Below, in pieces: positions 19,564 through 28,818 of a stretch of DNA of 64,000 bases. Position 1 is the first letter of the stretch. Each line of letters begins with the position of its first letter. Under the pieces are notes generated by a model that was not told the origin of the DNA, made no database searches, and saw only the letters and a list, made by a program, of their open reading frames with translations. Location: contig JAFKFK010000030.1 of NCBI GenBank assembly GCA_017307275.1, positions 1-64,000 on the forward strand, written 5' to 3'. This DNA is from Alphaproteobacteria bacterium (GTDB lineage Bacteria; Pseudomonadota; Alphaproteobacteria; Reyranellales; Reyranellaceae). The position numbers and the translations under genes were made by a program.

Positions 19564-20508
19564 TCAACGCTCCGGCTCTGCCAACGCCCGCCAGATCAGC
19601 TCCGTGACCGACGTCGCGCCAAGCTTGAGCATGGCGCGGGAGCGATGGATCTCGACAGTGCGATGACTGATGCCGAGCGTGCGGCCGATGAACTTGTTGG
19701 CGGCCCCTTCGAGGGCATGAACCAGCACCTCGCTTTCGCGTTGAGTGAGAGGCTCGCCAGCCGGTAGCAGCCGCTTCAGCAACTCGGTGCCGCTATAGGT
19801 CTTCGCGACGGCGTCCAGGGGATTCCGGGCAATCTCTGCAAGCCTCAACCGTGCAGTGCTGGCGATGATCCGGCAGGCGGTGACGACCGGTTTGCCGCTC
19901 GCTTCGGCGACCTGCTCGGCCATCTCCTCGGTATAGCCAATCGAGTTCATGATGATGAGGTCGGCGCCGGAGACGCGGCCGATGGCATCCATCAGATGCG
20001 TGGCATGGCTGCCGGCCGTCGTCGCGTGGGAGCTTTGCAACATCGTGCCATAGCCCGCCTCGGCGAGGAGGGATCCTTGGCCCGACAAGGGAATGATGAT
20101 GCCGATTCGCGAGTTGCCGGCGGTAAGCGCCGAAACCCAGGCTTCGACGGCGTACTGGCCATGGATCAAAGGCGTGCGGGTCGACAGCCGAGCCCGTATT
20201 CCGGTCATTGCCAGGATCAGCAGATCGTACCCCAGCCCGTCGACCTGCTCGACCAGGGCTGCCGTCCGCCTTGCTACAGCCTCGGCCTCGAGGATGACAT
20301 GCCTGCCGTCGCGCAGTCGGGTGAAGAAGCTTAGCTCGTCGGCGCTCGGCGTCATGCCGTCGATCTCTTGCTGCGGTACGTCGTCCAGCACCCCGAACTC
20401 GACGTAAGACAGGTCGCCAAGGGCGACGCGAAGCTCATTCATCACGTCGGCGCGTGGCGTCTGCCCCATGGTAATGACTGCGATGCGCGGCTGACGCCGA
20501 TCTCCCAC
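19564..20508 (-). CDS. AroM domain-LuxR HTH fusion, putative one-component regulator
   Basis: Protein of 314 residues. Residues 6-225 form an AroM-family domain, clearly homologous to the stand-alone AroM at 28147-28818: shared MGQTPRAD, FTRLRDGR and the PLSGQG segment. Residues about 252-310 are a LuxR/GerE helix-turn-helix (LTQRESEVLVHAL, ISHRTVEIHRSRAMLKLGA). The two conserved Cys positions of the stand-alone protein (C98 and C188) are Met101 (LAMTG) and Ser189 (MNSIGY) here, so the domain is probably a ligand sensor without catalysis. No receiver, PAS or autoinducer domain is present. It is divergent from the DUF917 operon across a palindrome and followed by the amidohydrolase. Regulatory direction is unknown. 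Confidence 0.85.
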   Translation of the reverse strand: MGDRRQPRIAVITMGQTPRADVMNELRVALGDLSYVEFGVLDDVPQQEIDGMTPSADELSFFTRLRDGRHVILEAEAVARRTAALVEQVDGLGYDLLILAMTGIRARLSTRTPLIHGQYAVEAWVSALTAGNSRIGIIIPLSGQGSLLAEAGYGTMLQSSHATTAGSHATHLMDAIGRVSGADLIIMNSIGYTEEMAEQVAEASGKPVVTACRIIASTARLRLAEIARNPLDAVAKTYSGTELLKRLLPAGEPLTQRESEVLVHALEGAANKFIGRTLGISHRTVEIHRSRAMLKLGATSVTELIWRALAEPER

Positions 20509-20519
20509 TTATCCCTCCG

Positions 20520-20539
20520 CATACGTGTCCGCACGTATG
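20520..20539. promoter_or_regulatory. Perfect 8-4-8 palindrome, candidate operator of the AroM-LuxR regulator
   Basis: CATACGTG, four bases, CACGTATG, with exact reverse-complementary arms. A 20-base symmetric site is the usual size for a LuxR-type dimer. It begins 12 bases upstream of the regulator start codon (20508) and lies about 150 bases upstream of the first DUF917 ATG. It could therefore repress the regulator and activate the operon from upstream. A smaller CGGCT, six bases, AGCCG repeat lies at 20553-20568. Confidence 0.6.
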
Positions 20540-20691
20540 GATTACACCCCGGCGGCTCTCTAAAGCCGATAGACCATACGCTTGGAGTGCCATGCTGCGA
20601 AGGACGGTTCGCTGGTCCCGATCTTGCAAAGGCGCCGAGGGGAAGGTCCTGCGCCGCTCCAGGACGAGGGCGGCCGCTGGAAACGGAAGCA

Positions 20692-21771
20692 ATGCCCTTA
20701 AGAGACATCACTCTCGACGACATTGAATCGCTGGCCGTGGGTGCCTGGGTGCTGGGCACCGGTGGTGGCGGCAGCCCTTATCTTGGCCTCCTGAACATGC
20801 GGGCCCTCTACAAGGAGGGTTATCGCGTTCAGCTTCTGCCATCCGACGAACTGGCCGACGACGACTGGATTGCCGCCGTGTCCAACATGGGTGCACCCTT
20901 GGTCGGGCAGGAGCGGCTGACCGACAGCCGTACCATCGCCCGTGCCGTCGACCTGATGGAGCGGCATACGGGCTACAGGTTCCGCGGGATCATGGCCCTC
21001 GAGATCGGTGGTGGGAATTCGATCCAGCCACTGATGGCGGCAGCACATCTCAAGCGCCCGGTGATCGACTCCGACATGATGGGCCGCGCCTATCCCGAGG
21101 CGCAGATGACCTCCGTGGCCGTTGGCGATCTGGCGCCGTGCCCGCTGACCACGGTCGATGTCCGCGGCCTCGAGTCGGTAGTGGAGAAGGTGCCGACCTG
21201 GAAGTGGATGGAGCGGGTCAGCCGCAAGATCTGCGTCGAGTACGGCTCGATTGCTTCGACCTGCAAGGCGCCACGTTCCGGAGCCGAGGTGAAGAAGTGG
21301 GGCATCCATGGCACCACCACCAAGGCCATTGCCATCGGTCACGCAGTGCGCGAGGCACAGCGCAACCATACCGATCCCATTGCCGCGATTCTCTCGGTGG
21401 AGCCTGGGAAAGTCCTCTACCGCGGCAAGGTCGTTGACGTGGAGCGCCGGGCGACGGAAGGCTTCCTGCGCGGGCGCACGCGCCTCGACGGCGTCGACGA
21501 CTGGCGCGGCGCGGGAATGGAGATCAACTTCCAGAACGAATGGATCGTAGCCTGGCTCGACGGCAAGCCTGTCGCCATGTCACCCGACCTGATCTGCGTC
21601 CTCGACTCCGTGTCGGGAGAAGCGGTCGGCACTGAAACCATTCGCTATGGCCAGCGGGTCACCGTCATTGCCTTGCCGCCGCCGCCAGTCTTCCTGTCGG
21701 AGAAGGGGCTGCAGCATGTCGGGCCCCGTGCGTTTGGTTACGACATCGAGTTCAAGAGCATCTTCGCGTGA
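20692..21771 (+). CDS. DUF917 family protein, copy 1
   Basis: Protein of 359 residues of the family PF06032, formerly DUF917; from memory some members are described as thiohydantoin desulfurases. It starts MPLRDITLDDIESLAVGAW at an ATG preceded by GGAAG; the open frame runs back to 20368, across the regulatory region, and is not coding there. The glycine-rich LGTGGGGSPYL near residue 20 is the family hallmark, followed by EIGGGNSIQP and PVIDSDMMGRAYPE. No signal peptide or membrane segment is present. It is the first gene of an eight-gene operon and overlaps copy 2 by four bases. The exact reaction is not established here. Confidence 0.9.
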   Translation: MPLRDITLDDIESLAVGAWVLGTGGGGSPYLGLLNMRALYKEGYRVQLLPSDELADDDWIAAVSNMGAPLVGQERLTDSRTIARAVDLMERHTGYRFRGIMALEIGGGNSIQPLMAAAHLKRPVIDSDMMGRAYPEAQMTSVAVGDLAPCPLTTVDVRGLESVVEKVPTWKWMERVSRKICVEYGSIASTCKAPRSGAEVKKWGIHGTTTKAIAIGHAVREAQRNHTDPIAAILSVEPGKVLYRGKVVDVERRATEGFLRGRTRLDGVDDWRGAGMEINFQNEWIVAWLDGKPVAMSPDLICVLDSVSGEAVGTETIRYGQRVTVIALPPPPVFLSEKGLQHVGPRAFGYDIEFKSIFA

Positions 21772-22850
21772 GCGTACGCGAGATCACCGCTGACGACATC
21801 GAATCGCTGGCCGTTGGCGCCTGGATTTTGGGCACTGGAGGCGGAGGCAGCCCCTATCTGCCTTTGTTGAATATGCGGCGCCTCTATCGCGAAGGCTATC
21901 GCGTGCAGCTCATGGATGCGGCGGACCTGGACGACGACGATCTGGTCGGCACGGTCGCCAATATGGGCGCGCCGCTGGTGGGGCAGGAGAGGCTGACCGA
22001 CAGTCTCACCCTGGCGCGCGCCGTCGAGGTGATGGAGAAGCATCTCGGCCACCGCTTCGCTGCCCTCATGAGCATGGAAATCGGCGGTGCCAACGGCGTG
22101 CGGCCGTTCATGGCGGCGGCGCACCTTGGCCGGCCGGTGATTGACAGCGACACGATGGGGCGCGCCTATCCTGAAGCGCAAATGACCTCCGTATCGGTTG
22201 GTGGCCTCACGCCGTATCCACTGACGGCCGTGGATGTGCGCGGTCTGGAAAGCGTCGTGCACAAGGTTCCGACCTGGAAGTGGGCGGAACGGGTCATGCG
22301 CAAGATCTGCGTTGAATACGGCTCTGTCGCCGCGACCTGTCAGCCGCCTCGGACCGGCGCCGAGGTGAAGAAGTGGGGCATCCATGGCACCACCACCAAG
22401 GCCATTGCCATCGGCGCCGCTGTGCGCGAGGCGCAGCGCACGCATGCCGATCCCATCGCGGCAATCCTGTCGGTCGAGCCGGGCAAGCTCCTCTACAGGG
22501 GCAAGGTGGTCGATGTCGCCCGCCGGACCACAGAGGGCTTCCTGCGCGGTGTTGTGCGCTTCGATGGCCTCGACGATTGGCGCGGCGAAAAGTTGGAGAT
22601 CAATTTCCAGAACGAATGGATCGTGGCTCTGCGAGAGCGCGAAGCGGTCGCCATGACGCCGGACCTCATCTGCGTACTCAACTCGGATACGGGCGAGGCG
22701 GTCGGGTCGGAAACCATCCGGTACGGCCAGCGCGTCACCGTGATTGCCCTGCCATCCCCGCCGGTCTTCCTCTCGGAGGACGGCCTGAAACATGTCGGCC
22801 CCCGGGCCTTCGGCTATGATCTCGACTTCAGGAGCGTGTTTTCGTCATGA
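21768..22850 (+). CDS. DUF917 family protein, copy 2
   Basis: Tandem paralogue of the preceding gene, 360 residues, starting with GTG inside a GTGA overlap. It keeps LGTGGGGSPYL, EIGGANGVRP and PVIDSDTMGRAYPE, and is similar to copy 1 over its full length. A 56-base tract (22359-22414) is identical at DNA level to 21283-21338 although the flanks differ. Both copies look intact, which argues for a hetero-oligomer or two related substrates and not a decaying duplicate. It overlaps the hydantoinase/oxoprolinase gene by an ATGA. Confidence 0.9.
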   Translation: MSVREITADDIESLAVGAWILGTGGGGSPYLPLLNMRRLYREGYRVQLMDAADLDDDDLVGTVANMGAPLVGQERLTDSLTLARAVEVMEKHLGHRFAALMSMEIGGANGVRPFMAAAHLGRPVIDSDTMGRAYPEAQMTSVSVGGLTPYPLTAVDVRGLESVVHKVPTWKWAERVMRKICVEYGSVAATCQPPRTGAEVKKWGIHGTTTKAIAIGAAVREAQRTHADPIAAILSVEPGKLLYRGKVVDVARRTTEGFLRGVVRFDGLDDWRGEKLEINFQNEWIVALREREAVAMTPDLICVLNSDTGEAVGSETIRYGQRVTVIALPSPPVFLSEDGLKHVGPRAFGYDLDFRSVFSS

Positions 22851-24388
22851 GGCGCATCGGTATCGACGTCGGCGGCACCAACACGGACGCTGTCCTGATC
22901 GAGGACGGCAAGGTCATTCGCGCGGTCAAGGCACCGACCAGCGAGGATGTCACCGCCGGCATCCTGGATTCTCTGAAGAGTCTCGGCTCGACTGGCGTTC
23001 TCGAGGGCAAGCGCATCGATGGCGTGATGATCGGCACCACGCATTTCATCAACGCCGTGGTGCAGCGTCGTCACCTCACCAAGGTTGGGGCGCTGCGGCT
23101 GGGCATGCCAGCTTCCGCCTCGTTGCCGCCGTTCTGCGACTGGCCAGAAGACCTTGCGGCTTTGGTGTGCGGTGGCGTTTGGATGGTCGAAGGCGGCCAT
23201 GAGTATGACGGGCGGCCGTTCATGCCGCTCGATGAGGCGGCGGTTACCAAGGCAGCCCATGAAATGAAGGCGGCGGGACTGAAGTCCGTCGGTATTTCGT
23301 CGATCTTCTCGCCGCTGGACCCCAGCCATGAAAAGCGTGCGGTGGAACTGGTCGCCGCCGTGATCCCCGACGTTGCCATTACCTGCTCGTCCGATCTTGG
23401 CCGCATCGGCCTGTTGGAGCGCGAGAATGCCGGCCTGCTGAATGCGGCGTTGGCCGATCTGTCACGTGACACGATCGCTGCCTTCGAGAAAGCGATCCGT
23501 GATTCCGGCCTCGACGCGCCGCTCTTCATTACCCAGAACGACGGCACGGTGGCCGAGGCTGCCCAAGCGCGTCGGTTGCCGGTCTACAGTTTCGCCTCTG
23601 GCGCCACCAACTCGATGCGCGGCGCCGCCTATCTCTCCGGTTTGGCCGACGCCATGGTAATCGACGTCGGCGGGACCACGGCCGATGTCGGCCAACTCAA
23701 GAATGGCTTTCCGCGTGAAGCCAATTCGGTCGTGAAGATCGGTGGCGTGCGTACGCTCTTCCGCATGCCCGATTTGCTGTCGATTGGTCTCGGCGGCGGC
23801 AGCCACGTGTCCCTCGATCCTCTCAAGGTCGGACCGGTGTCGGTGGGATATCGCCTGTTGAAGGACGGCATCGCCTTCGGCGGCAAGCAGCTCACGACCA
23901 CGGACGTTGCTGTCGCTGCTGGCATCCTGGACCTCGGTGACAGGTCCAAGGTGGCCTATCTCGACGAGGCGACCTGCCAGAAAGTCTTCGGCGAGGCAGC
24001 ACGTCTCGCCGAGGAAGCGATCGACCGGATGAAGACCGAGGCCGCCGACGTGCCGCTGATTGCCGTCGGGGGCGGCGCCTTTCTTATCCCGGAGAAGCTA
24101 CCGGGCGTGAGCCAGGTAATTCATGTGGAACATGGCGATTGCGCCAATGCCGTGGGGGCTGCGATCGCCCAGGTGGCGGGCGAATGCGACCAGATCTTCA
24201 AGGATCTGACGCGCAGGGATGCGATTTCGGCGGCGAGCGATATCGCGAACGACCGTGCCGTGGCGGCGGGCGCGGATCGCGCGACCCTGCAGACGATCGA
24301 AAGCGAAGACATGCCGCTTGCCTATCTGCCGGGCAACTCGGTACGCGTCCGCGTGCGCGTCGTGGGCGACGTCAAGGCCACCGCATGA
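22847..24388 (+). CDS. Short hydantoinase/oxoprolinase (HyuA-like) family protein
   Basis: ATP-binding actin-like-fold enzyme of 513 residues. The N-terminal phosphate-binding motif GIDVGGTNTDAVL and the second motif VIDVGGTTADVGQL near residue 273 are clear, as is the GLGGGSHVSLDP segment. HyuA and the oxoprolinase A domain usually reach about 690 residues, so the C-terminal portion is lacking; no HyuB partner is present. The family hydrolyses cyclic amides such as hydantoins and 5-oxoproline in an ATP-dependent way. Overlaps on both sides with DUF917 copy 2 and the permease gene imply coupled translation and probably a complex with DUF917. Confidence 0.9.
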   Translation: MRRIGIDVGGTNTDAVLIEDGKVIRAVKAPTSEDVTAGILDSLKSLGSTGVLEGKRIDGVMIGTTHFINAVVQRRHLTKVGALRLGMPASASLPPFCDWPEDLAALVCGGVWMVEGGHEYDGRPFMPLDEAAVTKAAHEMKAAGLKSVGISSIFSPLDPSHEKRAVELVAAVIPDVAITCSSDLGRIGLLERENAGLLNAALADLSRDTIAAFEKAIRDSGLDAPLFITQNDGTVAEAAQARRLPVYSFASGATNSMRGAAYLSGLADAMVIDVGGTTADVGQLKNGFPREANSVVKIGGVRTLFRMPDLLSIGLGGGSHVSLDPLKVGPVSVGYRLLKDGIAFGGKQLTTTDVAVAAGILDLGDRSKVAYLDEATCQKVFGEAARLAEEAIDRMKTEAADVPLIAVGGGAFLIPEKLPGVSQVIHVEHGDCANAVGAAIAQVAGECDQIFKDLTRRDAISAASDIANDRAVAAGADRATLQTIESEDMPLAYLPGNSVRVRVRVVGDVKATA

Positions 24389-25257
24389 AAGCGGGCCAGC
24401 CATCGCCTATTGCGTGGCTGGTCGCTCCGGCCGCACTGCTCTTTGTCCTCTTCTTCGTCATGCCGCTTGGCGTCATGGCGGCGATGTCGTTCTTCTCCGG
24501 CAATCCGGTCACCAATCCCAACGCCTTCCTGACGACGCGCCACTACGAGCGTTTCATCTTCGATTCGGCGGGAATCTTCCACGACGCCCTGTGGTCGACC
24601 CTGCGCATCGGCCTGATCACGACAATCGTCTCGTTGCTGATCGGCTATCCGCTGGCCCACTGGATGGCGCGCATGCAGTCGCGGCTCGGCCACGCACTCG
24701 TGCTGATCGCGGTGATTGCGCCGATGCTGACCGGCATCGTCGTGCGTACCTTCGCCTGGATGACAATTCTGCAGGACAAAGGCGTCATCAACACGCTGCT
24801 GATGCAATGGGGCCTCACCGACAAGCCCGTGCCGTTGATGTACAACGAGTTCGGTACGGTCGTGGCGCTGGTCCACATCTACGTCCCCTTCATGGTGCTG
24901 ACGCTGACCGGCGTGATCGGCCGCATCGACGAGCGTTTGGAGCAAGCCGCCCGCAGCCTGGGGGCTGGCCGAGCGAGGGCCTTCGTCGAGGTGACCCTTC
25001 CGCTGAGCCTTCCCGGCATCCTGGCGGGCTCCCTGTTGGTCTTTGCCCTGTCGATCAGTGCCTACGTCACACCCTCTCTGATGGGCGGCACGAATGTACT
25101 GACCCTGCCCATGCTGATCGCTCAGCAGGTCGGCACCAGCTTCAACCCCAACTTCGCTGGGGCCCTGGGGATGATCCTTCTGCTGGTCTCGCTGGTGATC
25201 GTCTTCGCCTACAATCGCATCCTGGCCCGACTGTCGGGCGAGCAGGGGCTGGCATGA
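24385..25257 (+). CDS. ABC transporter permease, PotB-like
   Basis: Inner-membrane permease of 290 residues with six predicted spans and the EAA loop EQAARSLGAGRARAFVEVTLP near residue 190, as in spermidine/putrescine-type importers. The ATG at 24385 overlaps the upstream stop in an ATGA; the longer open frame overlaps the hydantoinase gene and is a shadow. It pairs with the next permease, the binding protein at 26108 and the ATPase at 27163 to form a complete importer. The ligand is probably the substrate of the DUF917/HyuA enzymes. Confidence 0.94.
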   Translation: MKAGQPSPIAWLVAPAALLFVLFFVMPLGVMAAMSFFSGNPVTNPNAFLTTRHYERFIFDSAGIFHDALWSTLRIGLITTIVSLLIGYPLAHWMARMQSRLGHALVLIAVIAPMLTGIVVRTFAWMTILQDKGVINTLLMQWGLTDKPVPLMYNEFGTVVALVHIYVPFMVLTLTGVIGRIDERLEQAARSLGAGRARAFVEVTLPLSLPGILAGSLLVFALSISAYVTPSLMGGTNVLTLPMLIAQQVGTSFNPNFAGALGMILLLVSLVIVFAYNRILARLSGEQGLA

Positions 25258-26084
25258 GCGCGCCCGCAAACCACCCGCCGGCCAATCGCCGGCCCTTCGA
25301 TGCCGGCCGCGCCGCCTACCTGGCACTCAATATCGCCTTGCTGACCTTCCTGCTGGCGCCCATCGCCATCGTGCTCGTGTTCGCCCTCAACCCGACGCCC
25401 TATATTTCCTTCCCGCCGGTCGGCATCAGCCTTCGCTGGTTTGCCAAGTTCTTCTCCAGCGCAGAGTTCATGAATGCACTCTGGCTGTCGCTCTGGATTG
25501 CAGCCGTTGTGCTGGTCCTGTCGGTCGTGATCGGCGGCGCTTGTGCGCTGGCCCTCGCTCGCGGCAACTTGCCGGGACGCGGCTTCCTCACCGCGTTCTT
25601 CATGTCACCGTTGATGCTGCCCGCCATTCTGACGGGCCTGGCGCTGTTCCAAGCCTATCTGCTGGCGGGCATTGGCCGCCCGGTCTGGGGCCTGATCCTG
25701 GCCCATACTTTGGTAGCGGTGCCCTATGTCATACGCACGACGTTGGCCGTCCTGCATAACTTCGACCGACGTATCGAGGAGGCCGCAGCCGTGCTCGGCG
25801 CCAGCCCCGTGCGGGTCTTCTTCGAGGTCACGCTGCCCTTGATCCGGCCGGGCGTCTTTGCCGGTGGAGTCTTTGCCTTCATCGTCTCGTTCGATCAGTT
25901 CCCGGTTTCGCTGTTCCTGGTCGTGCCCAAGGGCGAAACCCTGCCGGTCGTGCTGTTCAACTACATGAAATTCGACCTCGACGGCGCCATTGCCGCCGCC
26001 TCGATGGTCTCGATCTTGCTGGCGCTTGCCGTCGTGCTGGTGCTGGAGAGGCTGATTGGCCTCAAGGCGTACGTTAAGCTTTAA
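25254..26084 (+). CDS. ABC transporter permease, PotC-like
   Basis: Second permease of the importer, 276 residues, starting at the ATG at 25254 inside another ATGA overlap. Six hydrophobic spans and an EAA loop (EEAAAVLGASPVRVFFEVTLP) are visible. It has the PotC-type ending with a long last span and a short basic tail. A long in-frame extension back to 24219 lies wholly inside the upstream genes and is not coding. A 23-base gap with AAAAAGGG separates it from the binding-protein gene. Confidence 0.94.
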   Translation: MSAPANHPPANRRPFDAGRAAYLALNIALLTFLLAPIAIVLVFALNPTPYISFPPVGISLRWFAKFFSSAEFMNALWLSLWIAAVVLVLSVVIGGACALALARGNLPGRGFLTAFFMSPLMLPAILTGLALFQAYLLAGIGRPVWGLILAHTLVAVPYVIRTTLAVLHNFDRRIEEAAAVLGASPVRVFFEVTLPLIRPGVFAGGVFAFIVSFDQFPVSLFLVVPKGETLPVVLFNYMKFDLDGAIAAASMVSILLALAVVLVLERLIGLKAYVKL

Positions 26085-26107
26085 AAAGGGAACAGAGGGG
26101 GTCAATC

Positions 26108-27154
26108 ATGATTTCACGTCGTCAGGCTCTCCGGACAGGTGCCGGCCTCGCCGCTGCCGCAACTCTTGGCGCACCCGCTATCCTTCATGCCCAGACCAAG
26201 ACGCTCAAGATTACCACCTGGGGCGGCAAGTGGGGCGATGTCATGAAGAGCACGGTGCTGCCGGCCTTCGAGAAGGAGTTCAAGTGCACCGTGCAGGCCG
26301 ACCAGGCCTTTCCGTTCGTGCCGAAGCTGCAGGCCAGCCCGCGGAACGATCCGATCTACGACGTGCTGCACACCAACTCGAACGAGCAGTGGAGCTCGCT
26401 CTCCGAAGGGCTGGTGATGCCGAAGATCACGGCCAAGGAAGTGCCCAACGTCGCCAATGTTTATCCCTATGCGGTCAGCGACAAGATTGTTGGCGTCACG
26501 ATCTTCACCAGTGCGATCGGGCTCGGATTCCGCACCGACAAGGGTCTGGCCAAGCCGACGTCGTGGAAGGACCTTGCTGATCCCAAGCTGGCCGGCGCGC
26601 GCGGCGGCTATCTCATTCCGGTGAACAGCCTCGGTCAGGCGCATCTGATGATGCTGGGCAAGATCTACGGCAAGGGCCTTACGGACCTCGACGCAGCGTA
26701 CAAGGCGCTGGAAGCGCTGAAGCCCATCAAGCTCGTGGATTTCACCGGACAGATGGAAAAGATGCTTCTCTCGGCCGAGGTGTCGATGGGCATCATCCAT
26801 GATTCGGGTGTCTATCGCTATGAAGGAACGAATGCCCAGCCGGTCGACTTCGCCAGCCCGTCGGAGGGCGTGCTGGCGCTGGAGCAGGTGCTGAACGTGA
26901 CGCCGGGCTCGAAGGTAAAGGAGCTCGCTTTCGGTTACATCGACTACATGCTGCGTCCGGATGTGCAGAAGCTGCTCGGCGAAGCCGTGTGGTACTCGCC
27001 GGCCAACAAGACGGTGAAGCTCGATCCCAAGTACGACGAGAAGCTGCTCACCACCGAAGCCAAGGTGGCGACCCTCATCCAGCCGGACTGGAAGTGGTAC
27101 AACTCGCACAAGGAAGACATCGACGCCCGCGTAACGAAGATCCTGCGAGGCTAA
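26108..27154 (+). CDS. ABC transporter substrate-binding protein, PotD/PotF-like, Tat signal
   Basis: Extracytoplasmic receptor of 348 residues with a twin-arginine signal ([20 protein letters not shown]) and cleavage near residue 29. The mature part begins [13 protein letters not shown], typical of the spermidine/putrescine receptor class. Polyamine receptors use acidic and aromatic pocket residues; I cannot establish that pocket here, so the ligand may be a different small organic compound. A GGGAACAGAGGGGG stretch precedes the ATG. Translation is less tightly coupled here than upstream, as expected for a receptor needed in excess. Confidence 0.92.
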
Positions 27155-27162
27155 GGGCGTTC

Positions 27163-28143
27163 ATGACCTCCGCTGCGATCAAGCTCGACAAGGTGACCAA
27201 GCGGTTCGACGGCAAGGTATTGGCCGTCGACGAGGTGACCTTGGATATTGCCGCCGGCGAGTTCTTCTCCCTGTTGGGGCCGTCGGGCTGTGGCAAGACC
27301 ACGTCCTTGCGCATGATCGCGGGCTTCGAGCATCCGGACTCCGGCCGTGTCCAGGTCGGCGGTCGCGACATCACGGACCTGCCGGTGCACCGGCGCGACA
27401 TGGGCATGGTGTTCCAGTCTTATGCCCTGTTCCCGCACCGCACGGTGGCCGAGAATGTGGCTTTCGGGTTGCGTATGCGCGAGGTGCCGAAGCACGAGAT
27501 CGCTCGCCGGGTACAGGCGGCGCTGAGCCAGGTGGCCCTTACCGGGATGGAGGATCGCAAGCCCGGCCAGCTTTCGGGTGGCCAGCAACAGCGGGTGGCA
27601 TTGGCGCGCGCCCTGGTCGTCGAGCCACCGGTGCTGCTCTGCGACGAGCCGTTGGGCGCGCTCGATCGCAAGCTGCGCCAGCAGATGCAGTTCGAATTGA
27701 AGGAGCTTCAGAAGCGGTTGGGCGTGACCCTGGTCTTCGTGACTCACGATCAGGAAGAAGCGCTCGCCATGAGCGACCGCATCGCCGTCATGAACAAGGG
27801 CAAGGTCGAGCAGGTCGGATCACCGACCGAGATCTACGAGCGCCCGCGCACGCGCTTCGTGGCCGACTTCATCGGTGAGATCAACATCCTGGAAGGCGGT
27901 CCGCGTGCCCGCGCCTTGCGGCCGGAAAAGATCCGCCTGGTATCGGCGCCCGAGGCGCGCACGACCGGCAAGGTCGAAACGGCAAACTATCTCGGCGGAT
28001 CGACGCTGCTCCGGGTGCGTGGGGCAGATGGGCAATCGCTGTTGGTGCGCGAGACCCACGCTGGTGAGCGCGCTTCGCGAGTGCCAGGTGATGCCGTTGG
28101 GCTGGCCTGGAACGACCAGGATGCCGTGATGCTGGAGGGTTGA
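27163..28143 (+). CDS. ABC transporter ATP-binding protein, PotA-like
   Basis: Importer ATPase of 326 residues: Walker [12 protein letters not shown]-loop [11 protein letters not shown], signature [15 protein letters not shown], Walker [12 protein letters not shown] and the H-loop His in [13 protein letters not shown]-terminal TOBE-like domain (about 240-326) carries [10 protein letters not shown]. The ATG at 27163 is 8 bases after the receptor gene; the longer frame back to 26989 is inside that gene. It completes the ABC importer of the DUF917 operon and is followed by aroM after 3 bases. Confidence 0.94.
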
Positions 28144-28146
28144 GGC

Positions 28147-28818
28147 ATGTCGCGTACTTTAGGCATCGTCACCATCGGCCAGGCGCCGCGCGACGATATC
28201 GTCGAGCTGTTCGCGGCCCAGGCGCCGGCCGGCACCAAAGTGATCCTGCGCGGGGCGCTCGATGGATTGAGTGACGCGGAGGTCGATGCGCTGCCGCCGC
28301 AGAGCGGCGCCGACACGCTCTATACGCGGCTCCGCGGCGGCCGCGATGTGAAGATTTCCAAGCAGGCTGTCATCGACCGTTCGCCGGCGGCCCTTGCGCG
28401 CCTGCGCGCAGATGGATGCGACGCGATCGTCTATGCCTGCACCGGCGAGTTTCCGCCGATGGAAGGTGACGCAGGCGTGCTGTTTCCTTCGCGCGTGCTG
28501 AGCGGCCTTGCGGAAGGGCTGTTGCCGCGTGGGCGGCTGGGGCTCCTCGTTCCTTTTGCCGAGCAAGGAGAGAAGCTGAAGGCCAAATGGGCGCGGGTCG
28601 GGGTCGAGGTCATCGTCGAGGCACTGGTGCCGAGTGCCGACCCGTTGGAAACGAAGGCTGTTGCTGACCGGTTGGCGGCCGCGAAGCCGGATCTGATTGC
28701 ACTTGATTGCATGAGCTACACGCCGGCTACGAAAGCGGCCGTGAAGGAGCGGGTGCCGGCACCGACTTTGCTCGCCATTACGGCAACAGGGCGCGTCTTG
28801 CGCGAGCTGCTCGATTAG
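28147..28818 (+). CDS. AroM family protein (Asp/Glu/hydantoin racemase-like)
   Basis: Stand-alone AroM domain of 223 residues, last gene of the DUF917 operon. It has IGQAPRDD near residue 14, C98 in YACTGEF and C188 in LDCMSY. Two conserved Cys at these places match the acid/base pair of the Asp/Glu/hydantoin racemase superfamily, to which AroM is distantly related. The best-known AroM (E. coli, beside aroL) has no settled function. In a hydantoinase-like operon a racemase acting on the cyclic substrate or its product is attractive but unproven. Its stop TAG shares the TTAG with the convergent DedA gene. Confidence 0.88.
   Translation: MSRTLGIVTIGQAPRDDIVELFAAQAPAGTKVILRGALDGLSDAEVDALPPQSGADTLYTRLRGGRDVKISKQAVIDRSPAALARLRADGCDAIVYACTGEFPPMEGDAGVLFPSRVLSGLAEGLLPRGRLGLLVPFAEQGEKLKAKWARVGVEVIVEALVPSADPLETKAVADRLAAAKPDLIALDCMSYTPATKAAVKERVPAPTLLAITATGRVLRELLD

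Follow-up and report, generated by a model that had tools for sequence, protein, structure and literature searches.

Background

LuxR/NarL-FixJ regulators carry a C-terminal GerE helix-turn-helix (HTH), and textbook examples such as the ROK/NagC, BirA, MocR and UTRA regulators reuse a catalytic fold as a ligand sensor beside the pathway concerned. We know of no regulator that pairs a racemase fold with a GerE HTH. The AroM family is biochemically uncharacterised, and its predicted structures resemble hydantoin and Glu/Asp racemases (PMC11055893). According to the same 2024 paper, cyclodipeptide-oxidase-like genes are found clustered with genes for AroM, DUF917 and hydantoin racemase (PMC11055893).

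In the whole stretch of 64,000 nucleotides analyzed here (the window), an AroM domain is fused to a GerE HTH. The fusion shares the C-terminal HTH of the LuxR/NarL-FixJ regulators, but neither a receiver nor an autoinducer-binding, PAS or GAF domain was found in it, the AroM domain being the sensor. It also shares the AroM domain (PF07302), well above the cut-off, but the fusions lack both cysteines and have an HTH, whereas the AroM of E. coli stands alone. The predicted fold of the AroM domain is that of the superfamily of Asp/Glu/hydantoin/allantoin racemases and arylmalonate decarboxylase, from which the fusion differs in the replacement of both cysteines at the putative catalytic positions and in its DNA-binding domain. 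The idea is the same as in the ROK/NagC, BirA, MocR and UTRA regulators, although fold, HTH class and pathway differ. The 18-bp palindrome of the predicted site and its promoter position resemble, in a textbook comparison, those of the lux/tra box. GerE regulators and enzyme-derived sensors are already known; their pairing is undescribed in the openly licensed part of PMC, where we found no description of an AroM-GerE regulator, in agreement with an earlier note on this DNA that knew of no regulator class with an AroM sensor. Searches of the same literature for thiohydantoin/DUF917 and ergothioneine yielded nothing on regulation.

Domain make-up, cysteine loss, ancestry, linkage and site geometry were established here by sequence comparison. 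We consider it likely that the fusion is a one-component, ligand-responsive LuxR-family activator of the DUF917-HyuA operon with a catalytically dead AroM-type sensor. Such a protein would give the LuxR-family regulators a new type of sensor and provide a clean case of an enzyme-to-sensor change, with one origin, lost cysteines and an intact sister enzyme often adjacent. DUF917, HyuA-like and AroM proteins are widespread and their natural substrates uncertain, so that a dedicated sensor with a defined predicted operator would give a direct handle on them.

Results and Discussion

Domain organization of the fusion protein

The features of the locus are:

19564-20508, minus strand: AroM-GerE fusion regulator, 314 aa, GTG start (Pfam AroM and GerE; conserved family)
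19852-20484, minus strand: AroM (pseudo-racemase) sensor domain, Met101 and Ser189 at the two Cys columns (PF07302, Cys columns, predicted hydantoin-racemase fold)
19591-19752, minus strand: LuxR/GerE HTH, residues 253-306, with R291 as candidate specificity residue (PF00196, covariation with half-site)
20521-20538, no strand: 7-4-7 palindrome ATACGTG-TCCG-CACGTAT, to which the fusion is predicted to bind (conservation, co-occurrence)
20561-20566, plus strand: TAAAGC, predicted -10 element of the DUF917 operon, beginning 22 nt past the palindrome (conserved TA spacing)
20692-21771, plus strand: S-Me-THD-like DUF917 protein a, at the head of the predicted target operon (PF06032/PF20906)
21768-22850, plus strand: DUF917 protein b, tandem duplicate (PF06032/PF20906)
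22847-24388, plus strand: HyuA-like hydantoinase/oxoprolinase (PF05378/PF01968)
24379-28143, plus strand: Pot-like ABC importer, with two permeases, SBP and ATPase (Pfam, NCBIfam)
28147-28818, plus strand: stand-alone AroM with C98 and C188, in a clade distant from the fusion (PF07302, E 4e-61; tree, AU test)

The fusion gene has GGAGG upstream of its start codon. Pfam placed AroM at residues 9-219 of the protein (E 7.9e-41; 140.4 bits, more than 100 bits above the curated cut-off of 23.8) and GerE at residues 253-306 (E 4.8e-16; 58.6 bits against a gathering score of 23.5), in good agreement with the spans of 6-225 and about 252-310 given in the earlier note. No further Pfam domain exceeded its cut-off, Sigma70_r4_2 being sub-threshold; Pfam detected neither a receiver nor an autoinducer-binding domain, indicating that the protein is not of the quorum-sensing receptor or response regulator type. 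The GerE part was best matched in NCBIfam by FixJ and the FixJ-like MctR, and no NCBIfam model covers the AroM-GerE combination. The fusion and the stand-alone AroM are the only two AroM genes of this genome.

A chance ORF or an assembly artefact was rejected, since full-length fusions with 66-97% identity are found at the corresponding position in twelve or so other Reyranella genomes; the fusion of R. massiliensis 521 is 97-98% identical to that of the window. The start of an amidohydrolase gene (PF04909; 18691-19560, minus strand), whose product has a twin-arginine-like leader, lies within the terminal part of the fusion gene, an overlap that suggests translational coupling. No close homologue of this amidohydrolase was found beside the fusion in R. 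massiliensis 521.

AlphaFold2 models of the fusion (pLDDT 82) and of the stand-alone AroM (pLDDT 92) were compared with PDB structures, a comparison with Asp/Glu racemases having been suggested in the earlier note. The best neighbour of the modelled sensor domain was the hydantoin racemase 2eq5 (Z 16.5, 187 residues, 3.4 A), and further neighbours were allantoin racemase 5lfd (Z 15.7) and 3ixl (Z 14.9); AroM models also matched maleate isomerase, glutamate racemase and arylmalonate decarboxylase. According to the models, the sensor domain has the two-lobed hydantoin-racemase fold of this superfamily. A PDB sequence search with the stand-alone AroM returned no true relative. When AroM was aligned by hhalign with a Shinella Asp/Glu racemase-family protein, only a short local match was obtained, in which the second AroM cysteine lies opposite a DCM motif.

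Loss of both cysteines in the fusions

Alignment of the fusion with the stand-alone AroM confirmed that C98 and C188 of the latter correspond to M101 and S189, as had been read by eye. To see how general this is, 104 distinct AroM domains were collected, among them 35 distinct fusions and 67 stand-alone proteins with both columns present. The fusions had Ser-Ser (20), Met-Ser (14) or Ser-Ala (1) at these columns, and three plasmid-borne fusions added later likewise lacked both cysteines. None of the 38 fusions keeps either cysteine, and loss of both is the rule among them. The stand-alone proteins were Cys-Cys in 61 of 67 cases and Ser-Cys in six, so that the second column is Cys in all 67 and Ser or Ala in every fusion. 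Methionine at the first column is peculiar to Reyranella, the fusions elsewhere having Ser. The cysteine loss described in the earlier note was therefore found in every fusion, but the methionine is only the Reyranella form and the first cysteine is not universal in stand-alone proteins. Since six of these lack it, the second cysteine is the better catalytic marker. The six Ser-Cys proteins (L072-L077), which are aroM-like, all come from one family, f200, probably Enterobacteriaceae. Their pattern would fit a chemistry with one cysteine, such as that of arylmalonate decarboxylase, as opposed to that of a two-base racemase.

Outside the cysteine columns, G15, P18, R19, D42, G103, G136 and Q144 are invariant in fusions and stand-alone proteins combined, which suggests that the binding pocket was kept in the fusions. 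Of the motifs noted earlier as retained (GQxPR, TRLRxGR and P-x3-QG), the first two are present in the window's fusion, and of the third P-x3-Q is kept, but its G is not conserved across the fusions.

The retained residues, together with the nucleophilic Ser found at most of the Cys columns, would suit a protein that is both enzyme and regulator, in the manner of PutA or BirA, and still catalyzes via Ser or other residues. We regard this as very unlikely: cysteine bases are required for racemisation in this superfamily, fusions of Reyranella, Ketogulonicigenium and G090 have Met or Ala at the Cys columns, and in many genomes an intact Cys-Cys AroM has been retained next to the fusion, which therefore need not catalyze. 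A catalytically dead sensor is the preferred reading, and the proposal of the earlier note that an enzyme was turned into a ligand sensor is supported by the sequences as regards an enzyme-like domain serving as sensor. The AroM pocket would still bind a substrate or product of the pathway, AroM itself being presumably an enzyme.

Distribution and ancestry of the fusions

The 38 distinct fusions come from Reyranella, Sneathiella, Rhizobium, Shinella, Ketogulonicigenium and others. Within the Reyranellales 13 other genomes carry one, mostly about 8 kb from an opposite-strand stand-alone AroM. Full-length relatives with 30-44% identity occur in Sneathiella, Rhizobium sp. LCM 4573, Aliihoeflea and Ferrovibrio, on plasmids of Shinella, Neorhizobium and Ketogulonicigenium vulgare, and in three further alphaproteobacterial genera. 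In public annotation the fusions appear as 'AroM family protein' or 'hypothetical protein'. Outside the Alphaproteobacteria, a phylum sample of 398 genomes, which is small, contained stand-alone AroMs only and no fusion, and the orders of G304 and G090 gave no additional fusions.

A tree was built from AroM domain columns only, after deletion of the two Cys columns. All 29 fusions included formed one clade (support 100/98) nested among stand-alone Cys-Cys AroMs of the MHCMGY type, which are their nearest Cys-bearing relatives. A Cys-Cys AroM of this type lies directly after the fusion, on the same strand, in Rhizobium, Aliihoeflea, Neorhizobium, Ferrovibrio, G304 and G267. On the other hand, the AroM of the window's operon (LDCMSY type) belongs to a distant clade, and joint grouping with the fusions was rejected (AU p 0.00026). 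The operon AroM is thus not the parent of the fusion, contrary to the earlier suggestion that the fusion controls the operon carrying its parent enzyme. The cysteine-loss counts probably trace to about one event that was long maintained; neither these counts nor those of the covariation between HTH and site are independent, since each probably reflects one or few evolutionary events. In an acidobacterial contig (L097) the divergent neighbour of DUF917 is a Cys-Cys AroM that lacks an HTH, which is possibly the arrangement that preceded the gain of the HTH.

Gene neighbourhood

The fusion gene of the window is separated by 183 bp from the divergent DUF917-HyuA operon. The same divergent layout was found at every locus with a readable flank, in Reyranellaceae, Sneathiella, Rhizobium, Aliihoeflea, Shinella, Neorhizobium, Ketogulonicigenium and three further genera, the widest gap to DUF917 being about 2 kb (one locus); the location beside DUF917/HyuA operons expected in the earlier note was borne out at all of these loci. 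M20 peptidase and racemase-family genes are other neighbours. Because the fusions are accompanied by DUF917, HyuA, M20 peptidase and racemase-family genes, the most plausible ligand would be a hydantoin- or cyclic-dipeptide-like ring compound. The ligand activating the regulator is likely to be the substrate or product of the pathway, and the protein could possibly be used as a biosensor for such compounds. Domain checks of the genes near fusion-free AroM/DUF917 loci revealed no obvious substitute regulator.

The tandem DUF917 pair, both members scoring above Pfam cut-offs, is present in most fusion-bearing Reyranella, L035 apparently having a single copy. Sneathiella (L091, L092 and L094) also encodes a second AroM-GerE paralogue, transcribed divergently from a stand-alone AroM and provided with a separate 7-4-7 site (GTAAGGG-CTTT-TACGTAT).

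Predicted binding site

The palindrome at 20521-20538, in the gap between the fusion and DUF917, is perfect over 18 bp. A search of 76 Reyranellales genomes, allowing at most one mismatch, found it in all 14 fusion-bearing genomes, always in the gap and once per genome, whereas the 62 fusion-free genomes had none at that place and only two one-mismatch matches elsewhere, which are chance hits. It was also absent upstream of DUF917a in eight fusion-free Reyranellaceae loci. This conservation and co-occurrence with the fusion support the candidate site of the earlier note (20520-20539) as a predicted site.

Other genera have the same 7-4-7 layout with altered letters, following the pattern TANGKR-N4-YMCNTA; in the Rhizobium/Ketogulonicigenium/G090 group the site has the form ATAGGGG-N4-CCCTTAT. 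The pattern was fixed on a first set and then applied to held-out genomes, and it matched Ketogulonicigenium and three further Sneathiella genomes, with a chance of 0.05-0.3% per region and about 0.1-0.3% for each of the held-out matches. Two outlying loci (G304/L125 and G267/L126) did not match, and in Shinella a single position of one half-site differs. At residue 291, the recognition helix had Arg where the half-site was ACGTAT (11/11) and Asn, His, Lys or Gln where it was CC(C/T)TAT (5/5), the latter group probably being one clade.

Co-location by itself is no proof of binding, and the palindrome might be bound by another regulator, with the fusion a mere neighbour that has another job. 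The strict co-occurrence of site and fusion in the Reyranellales, the lack of the site at the eight fusion-free DUF917 loci and the change of half-site letters along with the recognition helix leave this hardly any likelihood, and the single copy per Reyranella genome led us to reject a global regulator. Binding by the fusion is preferred. We also think it probable that the fusions are a new activator family with a decatalysed racemase-fold sensor, born once by AroM duplication and fusion to a GerE HTH and dedicated to alphaproteobacterial DUF917-HyuA ring-opening operons, in which recognition helix and operator changed together.

Promoter geometry and sign of regulation

In all 19 representative loci a TA, mostly TANNNT, begins 22 (15 loci) or 23 nt (4 loci) past the site on the DUF917 side, against an expectation for TA of about 0.9 per offset. 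The distance from the site to the start of the fusion gene varies from about 0 to 158 nt, indicating that the site is positioned to serve the DUF917 operon. If the hexamer is placed at -12, the predicted span of the palindrome is -52 to -35, with its centre at about -43.5. LuxR-type class II activation involves a comparable site position at the promoter. A ligand-bound dimer of the fusion would occupy the palindrome and bring RNA polymerase to the DUF917-HyuA(-ABC-AroM) operon, as LuxR does from the lux box. Activation as the sign of regulation is suggested by this geometry and by analogy with textbook LuxR class II promoters.

With the same sensor and the same site, the fusion could instead be a repressor released by its ligand. 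Divergent local regulators are often repressors, and self-repression would fit the layout in Reyranella and Ketogulonicigenium, where the start of the regulator gene is overlapped by the site or no more than about 15 nt away from it. A repressor is nevertheless unlikely, since it is the distance to the DUF917 -10 element that is fixed and not that to the fusion start, and since the site replaces the -35 box, a layout typical of activators and not of sites overlapping the core promoter. An activator of the DUF917 operon is therefore preferred, and this activator may also limit its own expression where the site abuts its start.

A sigma54-like element, TGG-N8-TTGCA (TGGTCCCGATCTTGCA), was observed in the window (20613-20628) and at 12 Reyranella loci (e.g. 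L032, L035 and L039). It is conserved at every fusion-bearing Reyranella locus, some 80-95 nt before DUF917a, and in no other genus. A GerE protein alone cannot open a sigma54 promoter. The conservation of this element before DUF917a suggests that another promoter may exist.
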